The position numbers and the translations under genes were made by a program. Positions 493 through 63,293 of a stretch of 64,000 bases of DNA are shown here, piece by piece. Every line of letters begins with the position of its first letter. Within the stretch, counting starts at the first letter, position 1. The stretch spans positions 2,108,001 to 2,172,000 of the forward strand of contig NZ_JAIFAG010000001.1 in assembly GCF_020012125.1 (NCBI RefSeq), written 5' to 3'. The notes below the pieces were generated by a model that was not told where the DNA came from, made no database searches, and saw nothing but the letters and a program-made list of their open reading frames with translations. The DNA is from Hymenobacter psoromatis. Its GTDB lineage: Bacteria > Bacteroidota > Bacteroidia > Cytophagales > Hymenobacteraceae.

Positions 493-500
493 GCGCTACT

Positions 501-614
501 GGTCATGGAGAGCGCAACGAAGTGAAGCGCGACAATCCTTCCTTCACGTTAGGGTTACTAATCCAACGTGAAGGAAAAATTGTCGCGCTTCACTTCGCTG
601 CGCTCGCTATGACC
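501..614. repeat. Long imperfect inverted repeat, GTCATNGCGAGC family
   Basis: Arms of about 50 bases (501-550 and 565-614) are complementary with roughly five mismatches around a 14-base loop. They fill the space between two convergent genes (phospho-sugar mutase and XRE/S24 regulator). The outer part contains a GTCATNGCGAGC core that reappears at 52727-52828, so it looks like a dispersed repeat rather than a plain terminator. A transcript from either side would fold into a long hairpin. Confidence 0.85.
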
Positions 615-624
615 ATTAAGTACT

Positions 625-1614: not shown

Positions 1615-1646
1615 GGTTGAGCTTAATAATGCTTGCAAATGTCTCC

Positions 1647-1770
1647 GATAAAACGAAGAACGTCATGCTGAGCCTGTCAAAGCACCGCTACTGCGCCGAG
1701 AGAATTAGTAATTCCAATGACTGCGGTAGAGATGCTTCGACAAGCTTAGCATGACGTTCTTCGTTTTATC
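1647..1770. repeat. Long inverted repeat containing the GTCATGCTGAGC element
   Basis: Arms 1647-1684 and 1733-1770 are complementary at 35 of 38 positions around a 48-base loop. Each arm contains GTCATGCTNAGC followed by TGTC-AAGCA. A related core occurs in the inverted repeat at 31886-32017, so this is a dispersed family in this genome. It starts just downstream of the SemiSWEET stop codon. Confidence 0.85.
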
Positions 1771-1773
1771 GTC

Positions 1774-3809: not shown

Positions 3810-3873
3810 CACTGGGCTCACAAAAAAAGGGGGTAGGCACTAGCGTCTACCCCCTTTTTTTGTGAGCCCAGTG
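3810..3873. terminator. Perfect 27-bp inverted repeat, terminator-like
   Basis: Arms 3810-3836 and 3847-3873 are perfectly complementary around a 10-base loop. Each arm contains an A7/T7 tract and a GGGGGTAG/CTACCCCC block. It starts three bases after the GAF-protein stop on the minus strand, so it probably ends that transcript. Stem length and perfection exceed what a terminator needs. Confidence 0.8.
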
Positions 3874-16937: not shown

Positions 16938-18320
16938 ATGAACTCCCTTCGCAAGACGGCCTTGCTGGCCACTGGCGCGCTCACGCTGCTCCTTAGCTCG
17001 TTTCAGTTGCGGCCGGTGCGGGTAGTCGATGACTGGCAAAATCTCTTCGACGGCAAAACGCTCACGGGCTGGAAACGCCTGGGCGGCACCGCCGAATACC
17101 AGGTCGAAAACGGGGCCATCGTGGGCACGAGCGTGGCAGGTTCGGGCAATACGTTTCTGGTCACGGATAAGGAATACGGCGACTTCGACTTGGAGCTGGA
17201 CGTTAAAATTGACGACCCGGCCGGCAACTCGGGCGTGCAAACGCGCAGTCACTTCGACGCGGCCGCGCAGCCGGGCAAGGTCTACGGCCGGCAGGTCGAA
17301 ATCGACCCATCGGCGCGCAGCTGGTCGGGCGGCGTCTACGACGAGGCGCGCCGCCAGTGGCTCTACCCCCTCGATTTGCACCCGCAGGCCAAAACAGCCT
17401 TCAAGGTGGGTCAGTACAACCACCTCCAAATAGAGTGCCTCGGTAACGAGCTGAAAACGTGGGTCAACGGCGTGCCCGTGGCCTACGTGGTGGACCCCAT
17501 CGACCCCCAGGGCTTCATTGGCTTGCAGGTGCACGCCGTGACTGATGCGGCGCAGGCCGGCCACAAAGTTTACTTCAAAAATATCCGCATCAAAACGAAA
17601 AACCTGACCCCGAGCCCGTTTCCGGCCGATATCTACGTGGTCAATTTCGTACCTAACTACCTGAACGCCTACGAGAAGCAGCACGGCTGGCAATTACTCT
17701 TTGATGGCAAAACCAGCCAGGGCTGGCGCAGTGCCAAAAGTCCCACCTTCCCCGCCGCGGGCTGGCAGATTGCCGATGGCATGATAACCGTGCTACCCTC
17801 CGAAGGCAAGGAAGCGGCCAACGGCGGCGACATCGTGACCAAGGCGGAGTACCAAGCATTTGACTTATCGTTTGAGTTTAAGTTGACGCCGGGGGCCAAC
17901 AGTGGGGTGAAGTACTTCGTGACGCTGGCCGAAAAAACCGACGGCTCGGCCATCGGCCTCGAATACCAGGTGCTCGACGATGCCCTGCACCCCGATGCCA
18001 AGCTGGGCCGTGACGGCGACCGCACCCTGGCCTCGCTCTACGACCTGAAAACGGCCGATAAACCTGCCCGCTTCGTACACCCCATCGGGGAGTGGAACGT
18101 GGGCCGCGTGGTGGTCTACCCCAACAACCACGTCGAGCACTACCTCAACGGAGCCAAAGTGCTGGAGTACGAGCGCGGCTCGCCCGCCTTCCGCGAGCTG
18201 GTAGCCCAGAGCAAATATCACGTGTGGCCCAACTTTGGGGAGGCCCCGGCCGGTCACCTGCTGCTGCAAGACCACGGCAACCGCGTGTCGTTTCGCAGCA
18301 TCAAGCTCAAGCAATTGTAG
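16938..18320 (+). CDS. Tandem DUF1080 (3-keto-disaccharide hydrolase domain) protein
   Basis: A 460-residue exported protein with an N-terminal signal segment (about 1-26). Two DUF1080 lectin-like domains follow in tandem at about 32-225 and 248-458. Each opens with an LFDGK-x-x-GW motif and contains a NSGV(Q/K) strand. Family knowledge: DUF1080 proteins hydrolyse 3-keto-glycosides or bind carbohydrate, and are often partnered with Gfo/Idh/MocA oxidoreductases that make the 3-keto group. The next gene is such an oxidoreductase, which supports that role. Exact substrate unknown. Confidence 0.85.
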   Translation: MNSLRKTALLATGALTLLLSSFQLRPVRVVDDWQNLFDGKTLTGWKRLGGTAEYQVENGAIVGTSVAGSGNTFLVTDKEYGDFDLELDVKIDDPAGNSGVQTRSHFDAAAQPGKVYGRQVEIDPSARSWSGGVYDEARRQWLYPLDLHPQAKTAFKVGQYNHLQIECLGNELKTWVNGVPVAYVVDPIDPQGFIGLQVHAVTDAAQAGHKVYFKNIRIKTKNLTPSPFPADIYVVNFVPNYLNAYEKQHGWQLLFDGKTSQGWRSAKSPTFPAAGWQIADGMITVLPSEGKEAANGGDIVTKAEYQAFDLSFEFKLTPGANSGVKYFVTLAEKTDGSAIGLEYQVLDDALHPDAKLGRDGDRTLASLYDLKTADKPARFVHPIGEWNVGRVVVYPNNHVEHYLNGAKVLEYERGSPAFRELVAQSKYHVWPNFGEAPAGHLLLQDHGNRVSFRSIKLKQL

Positions 18321-18424
18321 GGTGCGGGGCTTGCCCCCGCCCGTCGTTGCACGATGCGCGTTTGTATCGGTCAACGAAGCGCAGATTTCATTCAACAATG
18401 GGCGGGGGCAAGCCCCGCACCCTA
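18318..18424. repeat. Perfect 25-bp inverted repeat with 57-base loop
   Basis: Arms 18318-18342 and 18400-18424 match perfectly and include GCGGGGCTTGCCCCCGC, which is itself nearly self-complementary. The left arm begins with the TAG stop codon of the DUF1080 gene. The loop has no reading frame of note. It separates two genes likely to act together, so it may limit read-through. Confidence 0.85.
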
Positions 18425-18445
18425 CTTTTCTTAGCTTTCCTTCCC

Positions 18446-25592: not shown

Positions 25593-26474
25593 ATGAAGAT
25601 AATAGCTGCCATATTTTTGGGGCTAACGCTACTCGTGCAAACCGGGTGCAGCCACCAGCCGGCAGCCGGCGAGGTAGCCGCAACCACTGATTCGGCCACG
25701 TCAAAAGCTGCCCCTGCCGGGCCCGAAGCAGTAGCAAGCAGTAGTGCAGCCCCCCTACCCCCGCCCGCCCTGGTGGCCGCAGCCACCTCGCGCCTGCTCA
25801 TCTACCAGGCCGATGTGCGCCTCAAAACGGCTGCCATGCCCCGCGCCACGGCCAGCCTCGATAGCCTGGTACGGCGTAGCGGTGGCTACCTGAGTGCCGC
25901 TAACGAAACCCACATCGACGGCGAGTGGCGAGAGGAAAGTACCATTCGGGTACCCCCTGGCCAGTTTCAGGCACTGCTGAGTGGCCTGGCGGACTTGGGC
26001 ACCGTAGAAGAGAAGAAGCTCACTACCACTGATGTCACGGCCGAGCACGCCGATGTGGCGGCTCGCCTGCAAGCCAAGCGCGCCGTAGAGCGCCAATACA
26101 CGGCGCTACTCACCAGAGCCCAGAAAATTAAAGATATCCTTGCTATTGAGGAGAAGCTAGGCGAGGTGCGCGAAGAAATCGAAGCCACCGAAAGCCGATT
26201 CAACATCCTGAACGACGAGGTAGCGTATTCTACCATTACGCTCACGCTGTACCAGCCTGTACCCCAAACCGTACCCGATGCGCCCATCATATCATTGGGG
26301 AGCCGCACCGTGGAGGCTTTTTACGGTGGCTGGCAGCTCTTTATTTCCCTGCTTTTGGGCACGCTTACGCTGTGGCCACTGGTGCTGGTGGCTGGCATAA
26401 GCGGCTGGTGGCTGTGGCGCCGACGGAAAGATAATCCGAAGCCACAGCCACCAAAAACGCAAGCTCCGGGCTAA
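25593..26474 (+). CDS. DUF4349 lipoprotein
   Basis: The start at 25593 yields 293 residues with a lipoprotein signal (LLVQTGC, Cys19); an upstream start would spoil this. After a low-complexity Ala/Pro segment comes the DUF4349 domain (about 65-230): YQADVRLKT, IRVPPGQFQALL, TTDVTAEHADVAARLQ and a long helical hairpin with IKDILAIEEKLGEVREEIE. One transmembrane helix near 250-275 is followed by a basic tail. The family is widespread and functionally obscure, presumed to be an envelope protein. Confidence 0.88.
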   Translation: MKIIAAIFLGLTLLVQTGCSHQPAAGEVAATTDSATSKAAPAGPEAVASSSAAPLPPPALVAAATSRLLIYQADVRLKTAAMPRATASLDSLVRRSGGYLSAANETHIDGEWREESTIRVPPGQFQALLSGLADLGTVEEKKLTTTDVTAEHADVAARLQAKRAVERQYTALLTRAQKIKDILAIEEKLGEVREEIEATESRFNILNDEVAYSTITLTLYQPVPQTVPDAPIISLGSRTVEAFYGGWQLFISLLLGTLTLWPLVLVAGISGWWLWRRRKDNPKPQPPKTQAPG

Positions 26475-26531
26475 AAGTACAGGGCCCCGCTGAACGCCGT
26501 TCAGCGGGGCCCTGTACTTTTAGCCCGGAGC
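26463..26531. repeat. Perfect 34-bp inverted repeat with one-base centre (terminator)
   Basis: Arms 26463-26496 and 26498-26531 are perfectly complementary around a single base. The left arm includes the last three codons and the stop of the DUF4349 gene, so part of the coding sequence belongs to the palindrome. It lies between convergent genes and could terminate both. Confidence 0.9.
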
Positions 26532-31862: not shown

Positions 31863-31885
31863 AAAATCAGTTAAAAATTGAGAGT

Positions 31886-32017
31886 TAAAAGTGCAGAGTT
31901 GAGGAAGGTCATGCTGATGAAAGGAGCATTTCTACCACGCAAGTAAATGTGTAGGATTAGTTGTGCAGTGGAGATGCTTACTTCGTCAGCATGACCCTCC
32001 CCAACTCTGCACTTTTA
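31886..32017. repeat. Inverted repeat of the GTCATGCTGA family between mcp and cheW
   Basis: Arms 31886-31933 and 31970-32017 pair over about 48 bases with several mismatches. They share GTCATGCTGA and a GCATTTCTACC/GCATCTCCAC part with the repeat at 1647-1770. It lies inside the chemosensory operon, right after the receptor stop codon. It could reduce downstream transcription or stabilise the mcp message. Confidence 0.8.
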
Positions 32018-32020
32018 GCT

Positions 32021-48490: not shown

Positions 48491-48949
48491 ATGATGAAAA
48501 AAAATCTGTTGACCGGCCTGGCCCTGTGCTGCCTGCTGCCGGCGGCCCACGCCCAAACGGCCAAGCCCAACACGGCCCCCATGCCCAAGGACCAGCCCCC
48601 GACCGAGCAGGGCGCGGGCCTCAACCACGTGAGCGCCGAGATTCCAGTGGCCGCCTATTATGAGGGTGGGCAGGAGGCCATGTACGCCTTTATTGCCAAG
48701 GAGCTGAAGTACCCGTTAACGGCCAAGCACAACCGGATGCAGGGCCGCTGCATCATCAGCTTCACGCTGAATCCCGAGGGCACTATTCAGGGCCTGCGCA
48801 TCGTGAAGCAAGTAGGTGGCGGCACCGGAGAAGAGGCAGCCCGCGTGGTGCGCCTGCTCAAATTCAAGAAGCCCGAATATCCCGTCCTGACCAGCCTACC
48901 CATCGATTTCAAGCTGGGCGTAACTGGCACGAACACGGTGGGAAATTAA
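48491..48949 (+). CDS. TonB C-terminal domain protein, secreted
   Basis: The ATG at 48491 gives 152 residues with a signal peptide (LLTGLALCCLLPAAHAQ). The TonB-C type domain (about 60-145) shows YPLTAKHNRMQGRCIISFTLNPEGTI in pattern, followed by a VKQVGGGTGEEAARVVRLL helix. There is no N-terminal anchor or proline-rich spacer, so it is not a classical energy transducer. Such small stand-alone proteins are frequent in Hymenobacter; role unknown. Confidence 0.8.
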   Translation: MMKKNLLTGLALCCLLPAAHAQTAKPNTAPMPKDQPPTEQGAGLNHVSAEIPVAAYYEGGQEAMYAFIAKELKYPLTAKHNRMQGRCIISFTLNPEGTIQGLRIVKQVGGGTGEEAARVVRLLKFKKPEYPVLTSLPIDFKLGVTGTNTVGN

Positions 48950-48954
48950 AACGA

Positions 48955-49005
48955 GGGAGCAATGGGTAGTGAACAACAAAAATTGTTTTACTACCCATTG
49001 CTCCC
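48955..49005. repeat. Perfect 16-bp inverted repeat, terminator-like
   Basis: GGGAGCAATGGGTAGT (48955-48970) pairs perfectly with 48990-49005, with further AACAA/TTGTT pairing inside. It follows the TonB-C gene by six bases. Confidence 0.8.
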
Positions 49006-49036
49006 TGTTCATTATTAACTGTTCATTGTAAAAAGA

Positions 49037-52726: not shown

Positions 52727-52828
52727 TGTCATTGCGAGCAAAGCGCAGCAATCTTTCCTTGTCGTTCGCATCGTTGGATTTGCTACCCTGGTGGGAGGAA
52801 AGATTGCTGCGCTTTGTTCGCAATAACA
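52727..52828. repeat. Inverted repeat of the GTCATTGCGAGC family
   Basis: Arms 52727-52759 and 52796-52828 match at 31 of 33 positions around a 36-base loop. The arm starts TGTCATTGCGAGC and contains AGCAATCTTTCC, sharing its core with 501-614. This sequence is a dispersed intergenic repeat type in Bacteroidota, from memory. Confidence 0.85.
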
Positions 52829-61014: not shown

Positions 61015-61083
61015 TTAATGACTCAGCCCGTTGCCCGGTTGCCCTATGGTAGGGTAGCCGGGCAACGGGCTGAGTCGTTAATT
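61015..61083. terminator. Long near-perfect inverted repeat between DUF427 and cupin genes
   Basis: ACTCAGCCCGTTGCCCGG pairs with its complement across a short centre (CCCTATGGTAGGG), about 30 bases per arm with two or three mismatches. The flanking genes converge, so it can serve both. Confidence 0.85.
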
Positions 61084-61111: not shown

Positions 61112-61957
61112 TTAGGCTGGCTGTTTTTCGCCCAGCCGGCACACCTGCCCGGCTACCCAGGCATAGCCGTATAGAGCTACGGCTTTTAACTTACCCTCTC
61201 GTTTCTTAAACTCCCACACGTCCTGCATAAAGTCAGGGTAGTTTTTGCTGTTGAGCTGGTCGAATGCGACCGAAAGCGTCTGCGTAGTAGAATAAGCGGA
61301 ATGCCAAGTACCAGCCGGAATGAAGAGCGTTTCACCGGGGCCAATCGTGAATTTAATCGGCGTTGCCTCCCGGAAAAGAGGGTATTTCTCGTAGTCTGGC
61401 TCAAATAAATTGAGGTTTGACTGCCAGGTATTATCTGGATTCGGGTACAGCAGATGTTCCTGTCCGCGGGGAAATACAGTGAATTCTTTCTCGCCGTACA
61501 GCTGCGTTATCCAGGCATTCAGGTGGTAATAATCGAGATGCAGATACGGGAATTTTCCGCCGGGACCGCCAATGAAAAGCTCGGTAGCACTACCCCAATA
61601 CCCCCGCTCAAACATCTTATGTCGCAGCCAGTTAGGCTTAGCATAATTCAAGTCCAGCGGCTCTACCAGCGGCAAAAGCTCGGGGAGAGAGCCCGGAATA
61701 TTAAAAATGCAGGGGTAGGGTGCGGGGTTTTCCGAGCTACTATTCTTTATCAGAGCAATCAGCTCACGCATCGTATATTTTTTGCCCTTTACCTCGGTCG
61801 TGCGGTCCCCGAATTTTTCGACCAACCAATCCGGCGTAAGCAGGTTTTTAGCCTGCCAGGCATTGGAAGCGCTGGTAAAAATAACCGGAATGCCGGGGTC
61901 GTAGAACTCGGCCATAAACTCTTGGTGAGAGATGTCACCTACCCGCGTGATGTCCAT
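61112..61957 (-). CDS. Cupin-like / JmjC-type dioxygenase family protein
   Basis: The ATG at 61957 gives 281 residues. The iron site of a JmjC-like fold is visible: HLDYYH (His140, Asp142) and a distal His219 in PAGTWHSAYS, preceded by TIGPGETLFIP. A lysine in YGEKEFTVFPRG may bind 2-oxoglutarate. These cupin-8 family proteins are Fe(II)/2-oxoglutarate hydroxylases acting on proteins or small molecules; the substrate is unknown. An upstream start adds a hydrophobic leader that is probably not real. Confidence 0.87.
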   Translation of the reverse strand: MDITRVGDISHQEFMAEFYDPGIPVIFTSASNAWQAKNLLTPDWLVEKFGDRTTEVKGKKYTMRELIALIKNSSSENPAPYPCIFNIPGSLPELLPLVEPLDLNYAKPNWLRHKMFERGYWGSATELFIGGPGGKFPYLHLDYYHLNAWITQLYGEKEFTVFPRGQEHLLYPNPDNTWQSNLNLFEPDYEKYPLFREATPIKFTIGPGETLFIPAGTWHSAYSTTQTLSVAFDQLNSKNYPDFMQDVWEFKKREGKLKAVALYGYAWVAGQVCRLGEKQPA

Positions 61958-62040
61958 AGCTGATGAGATTTTAAGAGAACAATGTGTGAGTGAAAACGTC
62001 GGGCACAATAATACGCAACATCTTGCCACAGATGCAATAA

Positions 62041-62124
62041 GCCCCGCAGTTCCCTACCTCCCTTAACCAATAAAGCCCCCACTAGGGGGCTTTATTGGTT
62101 AAGGGAGGTAGGGAACTGCGGGGC
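62041..62124. repeat. Perfect 40-bp inverted repeat with four-base loop
   Basis: Arms 62041-62080 and 62085-62124 are complementary at every position, the longest perfect palindrome in the window. It lies six bases after the desaturase stop on the minus strand and about 83 bases upstream of the cupin gene. It will act as a terminator, but the length goes well beyond need. Confidence 0.93.
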
Positions 62125-62130
62125 CACCGA

Positions 62131-63117
62131 CTAGCTAATCCACTTAAACTTATACTCCAGCTTAGGCACCGTCATGCGGTCGCTAACGCGGCGCAGGCGG
62201 GCGGGTAGGGCCATCACGTAGTCGCGGGCCTTTTCGGCGGGACCGGTAAGGTCGGTGATGTGCTCAATTTTCCAGTCACTAATGAGCGTATCAAGTATGT
62301 CGGTATAGTCGGCGCTGGTGTACACGCCGATGCGCTGGGCGGCATCGGTGAAGTGGCCGAACGTCTTACCCATATCGATGCCCAGCTCGCGCATGTAATG
62401 GGCGGGCATCACAATCTTCTTGCGCATCATGTCTTCGAAAGCCAGCATCATCTCGCTAGGGTCCAACTCGAAAATCTTCTCCACAAATGTTTTATAGGCG
62501 CGGGCGTGGCGGTTTTCGTCGCCAGCAATCATACCGCAGATTTTGCTTAGGCCATCGTCACCGGCTTGGCGGGCCAGCTGGCCCACGCGGCGATGCGACA
62601 CGTTAGTGGCCATTTCCTGGTAGCTCGTGTACACGAAAGCGCGGTACGGGTCGTGAGCTGTGCCCAAGTCAAATCCGTCATTAATCAGGTGCTGAGTCGA
62701 AAACTCAAACTCACGCATATTGACCCGGCCACTGAGGTAGAGGTAGCGATTGAGTAGGTCACCATGCCGGTTTTCCTCAGCCGTCCAGCCCCGAATCCAC
62801 TGCGCCCAGCCGTTATTGCGGTCGCGGTTCAGGTCGTCCAACTCATGAAACCATGCTTCGTAGTTAGGCAGCGCCTCTTCTGTAATGGTGTCACCGATGA
62901 GCACGGCCAACAGGTCGTAGCTGAGGCTGCCAGCTTTTTCGCGCAGTTCTTTCACTTCGTCAAAGAAGGTATCGCGGCGCGAATCGGGGAGGTAATCGGC
63001 GGGCTGCCAGCTATCTTCCACCTTCTTGAGAAAGGTGTAAATATTATCTTTTAGATAACCTTCAAGCTGTTGGAGCACCTCGCCGCGCGAGATGAGAAGG
63101 TCGTTAGTGAGCATCAT
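62131..63117 (-). CDS. Acyl-ACP desaturase, soluble diiron type
   Basis: The ATG at 63117 gives 328 residues; another ATG lies six codons upstream. The diiron ligands are Glu80 or Glu81 in the TITEEALP helix, Glu115-His118 (EENRHG), Glu168 in SYQEMA and Glu201-His204 (DENRHA). This is the stearoyl-ACP delta-9 desaturase family (FA_desaturase_2), which introduces a cis double bond into acyl-ACP. It may adjust membrane fluidity. Confidence 0.93.
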   Translation of the reverse strand: MMLTNDLLISRGEVLQQLEGYLKDNIYTFLKKVEDSWQPADYLPDSRRDTFFDEVKELREKAGSLSYDLLAVLIGDTITEEALPNYEAWFHELDDLNRDRNNGWAQWIRGWTAEENRHGDLLNRYLYLSGRVNMREFEFSTQHLINDGFDLGTAHDPYRAFVYTSYQEMATNVSHRRVGQLARQAGDDGLSKICGMIAGDENRHARAYKTFVEKIFELDPSEMMLAFEDMMRKKIVMPAHYMRELGIDMGKTFGHFTDAAQRIGVYTSADYTDILDTLISDWKIEHITDLTGPAEKARDYVMALPARLRRVSDRMTVPKLEYKFKWIS

Positions 63118-63293
63118 ACGGAAGAGTGCCGCCAATGAGCGGCCGGTGAATGAACACGCGAAGGTCGGCTTTTAGTTGGGTTTAATGGGTACAATATTAT
63201 GGCTTTCCCGCATTTAGGGGGTCTGCAACGGTCAAAAATCACCTACGGTTTAGCTACCTTGCTGGTTTTGCGGCATTAGCCCAGCCGGTCCGC

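Follow-up and report, generated by a model that had tools for sequence, protein, structure and literature searches.

Long palindromes at gene 3' ends in Hymenobacter: terminator-type hairpins with arms probably extended by template switching

The stretch of Hymenobacter psoromatis DNA analysed here (the window, 64,000 nucleotides) comes from a genome of 5.15 Mb in 7 contigs. It carries a fatty acid desaturase gene (PF03405). A palindrome starts 6 bp past the stop codon of this gene, and its arms, 62041-62080 and 62085-62124, are complementary at 40 of 40 positions around the loop ACTA. The next gene downstream is of the cupin/JmjC type (PF13621). Coordinates given for both genes (Table 1) are those of the longest open reading frame; the true start of the desaturase gene is possibly internal, and that of the cupin gene is uncertain, the gene predictor placing it at 61957. 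No further copy of the palindrome was found elsewhere in its own genome, and an Rfam search of the window matched no family.

As RNA, the palindrome folds with -92.2 kcal/mol (z = -14.9). Like an intrinsic terminator, it is a GC-rich stem-loop directly 3' of a stop codon, and its core is terminator-like (AUAAAGCCCCC-UAGU-GGGGGCUUUAU, with the terminator-like site at 62088-62076). The core stem is followed by a weak T run (GGGGG-CTTTATT), and there is no T run 3' of the full 40-bp stem. Judging from the sequence, termination of transcription is the most likely role of the core, although an uncertain one because the T run after its stem is weak.

Table 1. Genes and inverted repeats of the window; complementarity of arms is given in per cent
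Feature	Coordinates	Strand	Description
REP-type dimer (listed as 501)	497-618		GTCATTGCGAGC-like family; 54-nt arms, 89%
REP-type dimer, CGTC-tagged (listed as 1647)	1646-1771		CGTCATGCTGAGC family
Unique hairpin	3810-3873	-	Perfect 27-bp outer arms, T7/A7 tract
REP-type dimer, GTAG-tagged (listed as 18318)	18317-18425		GTAGGGTGCGGGGC...; 23 further sites in 3.6 Mb
Unique perfect palindrome	26463-26531		Arms of 34 bp, loop of 1 nt; convergent genes on either side
Degenerate hairpin (listed as 31886)	31883-32020		GGTCATGCTGA...GCATTTC core; 64-nt arms, 80%
Unique hairpin (listed as 48955)	48954-49006	+	20-nt arms (17 perfect, 19-nt inner part)
REP-type dimer	52727-52828		TGTCATTGCGAGC...GCAATC; 33-nt arms, 94%
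Unique hairpin	61015-61081		32-nt arms, 91%; between convergent genes
Cupin/JmjC-type gene (PF13621)	61112-62029	-	Next downstream of the desaturase palindrome
Unique perfect palindrome	62041-62124	-	40-bp arms, 4-nt loop
Fatty acid desaturase gene (PF03405)	62131-63135	-	3' end bears the 62041 palindrome

The initial annotation had listed ten long inverted repeats in the window, several of them as perfect over 25-40 bases; we refer to each by its listed start. All ten were confirmed; their arms are 20-64 nt long and 80-100% complementary, and the longest perfect arms measure 40, 34, 27, 26 and 21 nt. However, perfection over the whole length is confined to 62041 and 26463; the remaining eight have arms of 80-95% or a shorter perfect part. 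These arms exceed chance: first-order Markov shuffles of the window gave perfect arms of at most 10-11, and a second-order shuffle of 464 kb contained no hairpin above score 12, the score being the number of matched pairs minus three per mismatch. Nearly all of the listed repeats lie 1-12 bp 3' of a stop codon, a placement that the initial annotation had brought out in part.

The list mixes two classes, namely five REP-type dimers (501, 1647, 18318, 31886 and 52727) and five unique hairpins at gene 3' ends (3810, 26463, 48955, 61015 and 62041). The earlier statement that most of the repeats share no sequence is correct for the five unique ones, which occur nowhere else in the 3.6 Mb of Hymenobacter DNA searched. 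It fails for the dimers, since 501, 1647, 18318 and 52727 have 6-42 other copies there and 31886 bears a degenerate copy of the 1647 motif. The unique hairpins mostly have terminator-like cores, with complementarity running far beyond the core. Hairpin 3810 lies 2 bp 3' of the stop codon of a GAF-domain gene and 48955 directly 3' of a gene ending at 48949; 61015 is placed between the ends of a DUF427 gene (61005) and of the cupin gene (61112), and 26463 overlaps the last 12 bp of a DUF4349 gene.

GTAG- and CGTC-tagged classes of REPs have been described (Di Nocera et al. 2013, PMC3733652), and 501, 1647, 18318 and 52727 are likewise dispersed, tagged palindromes arranged as head-to-head dimers. 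For example, the word GTCATGCTGAGC of the 1647 family occurs 133 times in the genome, as opposed to 1 occurrence of its backward control. Repeat 31886 probably represents a CGTC-type dimer that has decayed and whose arms have been extended. Five listed repeats thus resemble the described elements in being tagged head-to-head dimers, whereas the unique palindromes are untagged and have no copies. In principle, a RAYT transposase could have placed all of the hairpins at gene ends as REP/REPIN or MITE-like elements: GTAG- or CGTC-tagged dispersed families do account for half of the list (classes as in PMC3733652), and GTAG repeats flank a Y1_Tnp (RAYT-type) gene at G000:C1:899755. Nevertheless, besides being single-copy, the unique hairpins largely lack family members in closely related strains, and relatives that have no long arms retain terminator cores at the corresponding position. 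We regard a mobile origin of all hairpins as improbable, and a single mobile element behind all the palindromes was rejected for the unique class on account of its missing copies.

The orthologous desaturase 3' ends are informative in this respect. Most Hymenobacter have a terminator stem of 14-17 bp there (e.g. AAAAGCCCCGGCTGCCCCGCGCAGCCGGGGCTTTT), and in some the stem is extended to perfect arms of 29-43 bp with species-specific sequence. Such arms outside the core are found in the window, UV11 (L103), H. ginkgonis (L036), L018, L067, L076, L106 and others. A score of at least 20 is reached at this place in 24 of 86 Hymenobacter rows, with a few genomes counted twice, versus 3 of 20 from other genera of the order. 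The UV11 palindrome, which is probably orthologous to 62041, differs from it at several places in both arms, yet it is perfect in both genomes. In the relative H14-R3, the 13-mer CCCTTAACCAATA of the window's arm sits downstream of the strain's own terminator, which hints that the window's arm may have been derived from local sequence. No close sister with the pre-extension state of 62041 was found. Orthologues of 26463 likewise keep a hairpin, with arm sequences that differ and several that are perfect. Because desaturase and 26463 orthologues retain core or hairpin while the arms vary, the reading that suits the unique palindromes best is that of terminator-type hairpins whose arms have been extended.

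Similarity to intrinsic (Rho-independent) terminators comprises a GC-rich stem and A and T tracts just past the stop codon, often common to two convergent genes. The difference is that complementarity in Hymenobacter runs 10-30 bp beyond the tracts, and that such hairpins are abundant. We counted them in 464 kb of the window's genome, in 800 kb each of two further Hymenobacter genomes (G082 and G010) and in 80 loci from other Hymenobacter. For comparison outside the genus we used 100 kb of E. coli and 20 loci belonging to other genera of the order. Hymenobacter has 54-114 hairpins per Mb with a score of at least 20, whereas 100 kb of E. coli contains none. Hairpins with a score of at least 30 number 28 in the 464 kb, or about 60 per Mb, compared with 15 per Mb in G082, 12.5 in G010 and 43 in the 80 loci. 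Extrapolated to the whole genome of the window, this amounts to about 300, REP dimers included.

Their location is equally distinctive. Among 259 hairpins with a score of at least 20, tandem or convergent intergenic DNA holds 131 of the 138 unique ones and 111 of the 121 that belong to repeat families, while divergent gaps hold only 11 hairpins and coding sequence 6. We also observed that the outer ends of unique tandem hairpins cluster 0-20 bp past the stop codon and rarely enter coding sequence.

Orthologous arms change together. In the close pair G082/G010, with a median nucleotide identity of 95% in genes, hairpins called in G082 show 1814 base pairs unchanged in G010, 111 changed on one side and 40 changed on both sides (convergent hairpins are counted from both sides). 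Watson-Crick pairing is kept in 30 of the 40 double changes; independence predicts about 5 doubles and about 1.6 Watson-Crick doubles, so that pairing-preserving double changes occur at about 19 times the chance level. Some of the double changes could have been added by continuing selection through point mutation.

Further, whole loops are found inverted. At the gene pair 529/487 a loop of 7 nt reads GCTTACT in one genome and AGTAAGC in the other, with conserved arms around it; at 110/96 the loop and a stem mismatch flip together, and similar inversions are present at 377/352, 685/614 and 235/216. In the last case (loop GAAT/ATTC) the right arm and its flank are common to both genomes, and the left arm with the loop in G082 is an inverse copy of the right side. 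Other species pairs have loop inversions too, e.g. GATT/AATC in L045 versus L061, and in one species pair they were flagged in 7 of 61 matched hairpins. For short loops a strict rule gave 4 inverted, 0 reverse and 2 complement cases, and short-loop inversions alone could be due to chance. When about 500 orthologous 3' regions of G082 and G010 were scanned, 26 clusters of differences matched the reverse complement of neighboring sequence, some of them REP insertions, as against 3 for the reverse and 2 for the complement control. A fixed direction of copying was rejected, as right-to-left copying is suggested at 235/216 and in L018 versus L040/L043 and left-to-right copying in L076. The idea raised by the initial annotation, that some process such as template switching keeps creating or repairing palindromes, thus gains support for the unique hairpins from coordinated changes, loop inversions and inverse-copied arms.

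The same annotation also offered strong selection on RNA hairpins at 3' ends. If the arms were maintained by pairing in RNA, the transcribed strand should tolerate G-U better than A-C. Terminators with a short stem (best stem 11-13) do show this, with a G-U to A-C gain of 75:21 (P = 3e-8), the background without a good stem being 412:268. Long hairpins (at least 20) have no preference (30:34), and internal mismatches of tandem hairpins on the transcribed strand comprise 58 G-U and 64 A-C beside 5317 Watson-Crick pairs. Since the G-U preference is confined to short terminators, we conclude that the core is under RNA selection and that the long arms are shaped mainly by a DNA-level process, the simplest known one being replicative template switching (PMC8794818).

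RNA selection alone would mean that long stems are themselves selected, for termination or for protection from 3' exonucleases, and that compensatory point mutations keep the arms. The gene-end location with few hairpins in divergent gaps, the wobble preference of short terminators and the extreme stability of the 62041 RNA hairpin all agree with it. The wobble test weakens it for the long arms, and loop inversions and inverse-copied arms are beyond the reach of compensatory point changes. We therefore retain RNA selection for the short terminators and consider it unlikely as the sole cause.

We suggest instead, with a probability of roughly three in four, that these are hairpins of gene 3' ends, likely intrinsic terminators, whose arms have been lengthened, homogenized or inverted by template switching while RNA selection kept the core. 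During DNA replication, a nascent strand at the hairpin would take either its own arm or the opposite one as new template, copy the flank backwards and then return. A single step of this kind could lengthen, homogenize or invert the hairpin. RNA selection would retain a working core, and the long perfect outer arms would be mainly a by-product of repeated copying.

That the copying is replicative template switching and not some other DNA-level conversion is what we infer. Recombination between arms (gene conversion, cruciform cutting, crossing-over) would also yield loop inversion and arm homogenization, and it leaves the same inversion and copy patterns as template switching. Extension of complementarity past the original stem into unique flanks, however, needs new synthesis, and arms of 15-20 bp are below the length usual for homologous recombination; we regard it as a rather improbable source of these hairpins. 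Whole-genome amplification is known to produce inverted chimeras, but chimeric joints from assembly or library preparation are a hardly credible explanation for a pattern that is tied to gene 3' ends and is shared by tens of Hymenobacter genomes sequenced independently, including isolates with complete chromosomes.

Template-switch mutations create and maintain RNA hairpins in rRNA genes and other RNA genes, e.g. those of microRNAs (Monttinen and Loytynoja 2022, PMC8794818). Single-step perfect stems, multi-base compensatory changes and occasional inversion of the whole loop are common to those hairpins and ours; in G082/G010 the class displays reverse-complement copies, coordinated arm change and in-place loop inversion. 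There are also differences: those are RNA genes, whereas ours are bacterial gene-3'-end hairpins with arms of up to 30-50 bp, in which loop inversions are not rare. Quasipalindrome-associated template switching in E. coli has been followed by reporter assays over laboratory time (e.g. PMC7202029, PMC6357072). Replicative switching makes imperfect inverted repeats perfect there as well, in laboratory assays, whereas here we see an evolutionary outcome across genomes.

In a literature collection with few subscription journals, we found neither a paper about inverted repeats in Hymenobacter nor one about template switching at the terminators of bacteria. The template-switch mechanism and the hairpin structures are known; their density at bacterial gene ends was not found described. 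Much is known about template switching from reporter assays, and it has been inferred in the evolution of RNA genes. With a bacterial genus that has dozens of perfect palindromes per Mb in close species pairs, one could measure the rate, polarity and size limit of template switching from genome sequences alone, and the pattern would show terminators changing their whole stem in one step with the hairpin retained.

Long perfect palindromes are normally unstable where SbcCD is active, and the initial annotation had hinted that it might be missing. This is not borne out. The sbcD gene is present in 61 of 61 Hymenobacter genomes, and the window's genome contains full-length SbcD-like (421 aa) and SbcC-like (1240 aa) frames close together; the SbcC-like frame falls below curated family cut-offs and has both ATPase halves. 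SbcCD is thus encoded and looks intact, and its absence was rejected as a cause. E. coli generally tolerates palindromes shorter than about 100-150 bp. Total hairpin length in the 3.6 Mb falls from 107 hairpins at 80-99 nt to 49 at 100-119 and 5 at 120-139. This sharp drop above about 120 nt is compatible with a length cap, although part of the drop could come from the shortness of intergenic gaps and from the limit set on loops in the search; nothing in the hairpin sizes contradicts SbcCD activity. More tentatively, one can imagine that gene-end hairpins of Hymenobacter are hot spots of template switching at a rate well above that of other bacteria, that 3' ends evolve in jumps by inverted copying, and that SbcCD-type cleavage caps growth near 120 nt in total.

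Some observations concern the REP-type repeats. The Y1_Tnp gene named above (L242, G000:C1:899367-900134) has GTAG REPs on both sides (899367, 900057 and 900109), as is typical of a RAYT that has a REP family of its own, and about 30 such GTAG repeats are present in the genome. CGTC repeats have been reported without an associated transposase (PMC3733652). A CGTC-type dimer, the GTCATGCTGAGC pair at 3419712/3419790, is separated by about 1.2 kb from a second Y1_Tnp gene (L241, G000:C1:3418278). In some REP-type hairpins (offsets 126391, 143851 and 440398 in the window joined to L113-L132) the perfect arms reach beyond the REP into unique flanking sequence, as though the same arm extension had been seeded by the REP.
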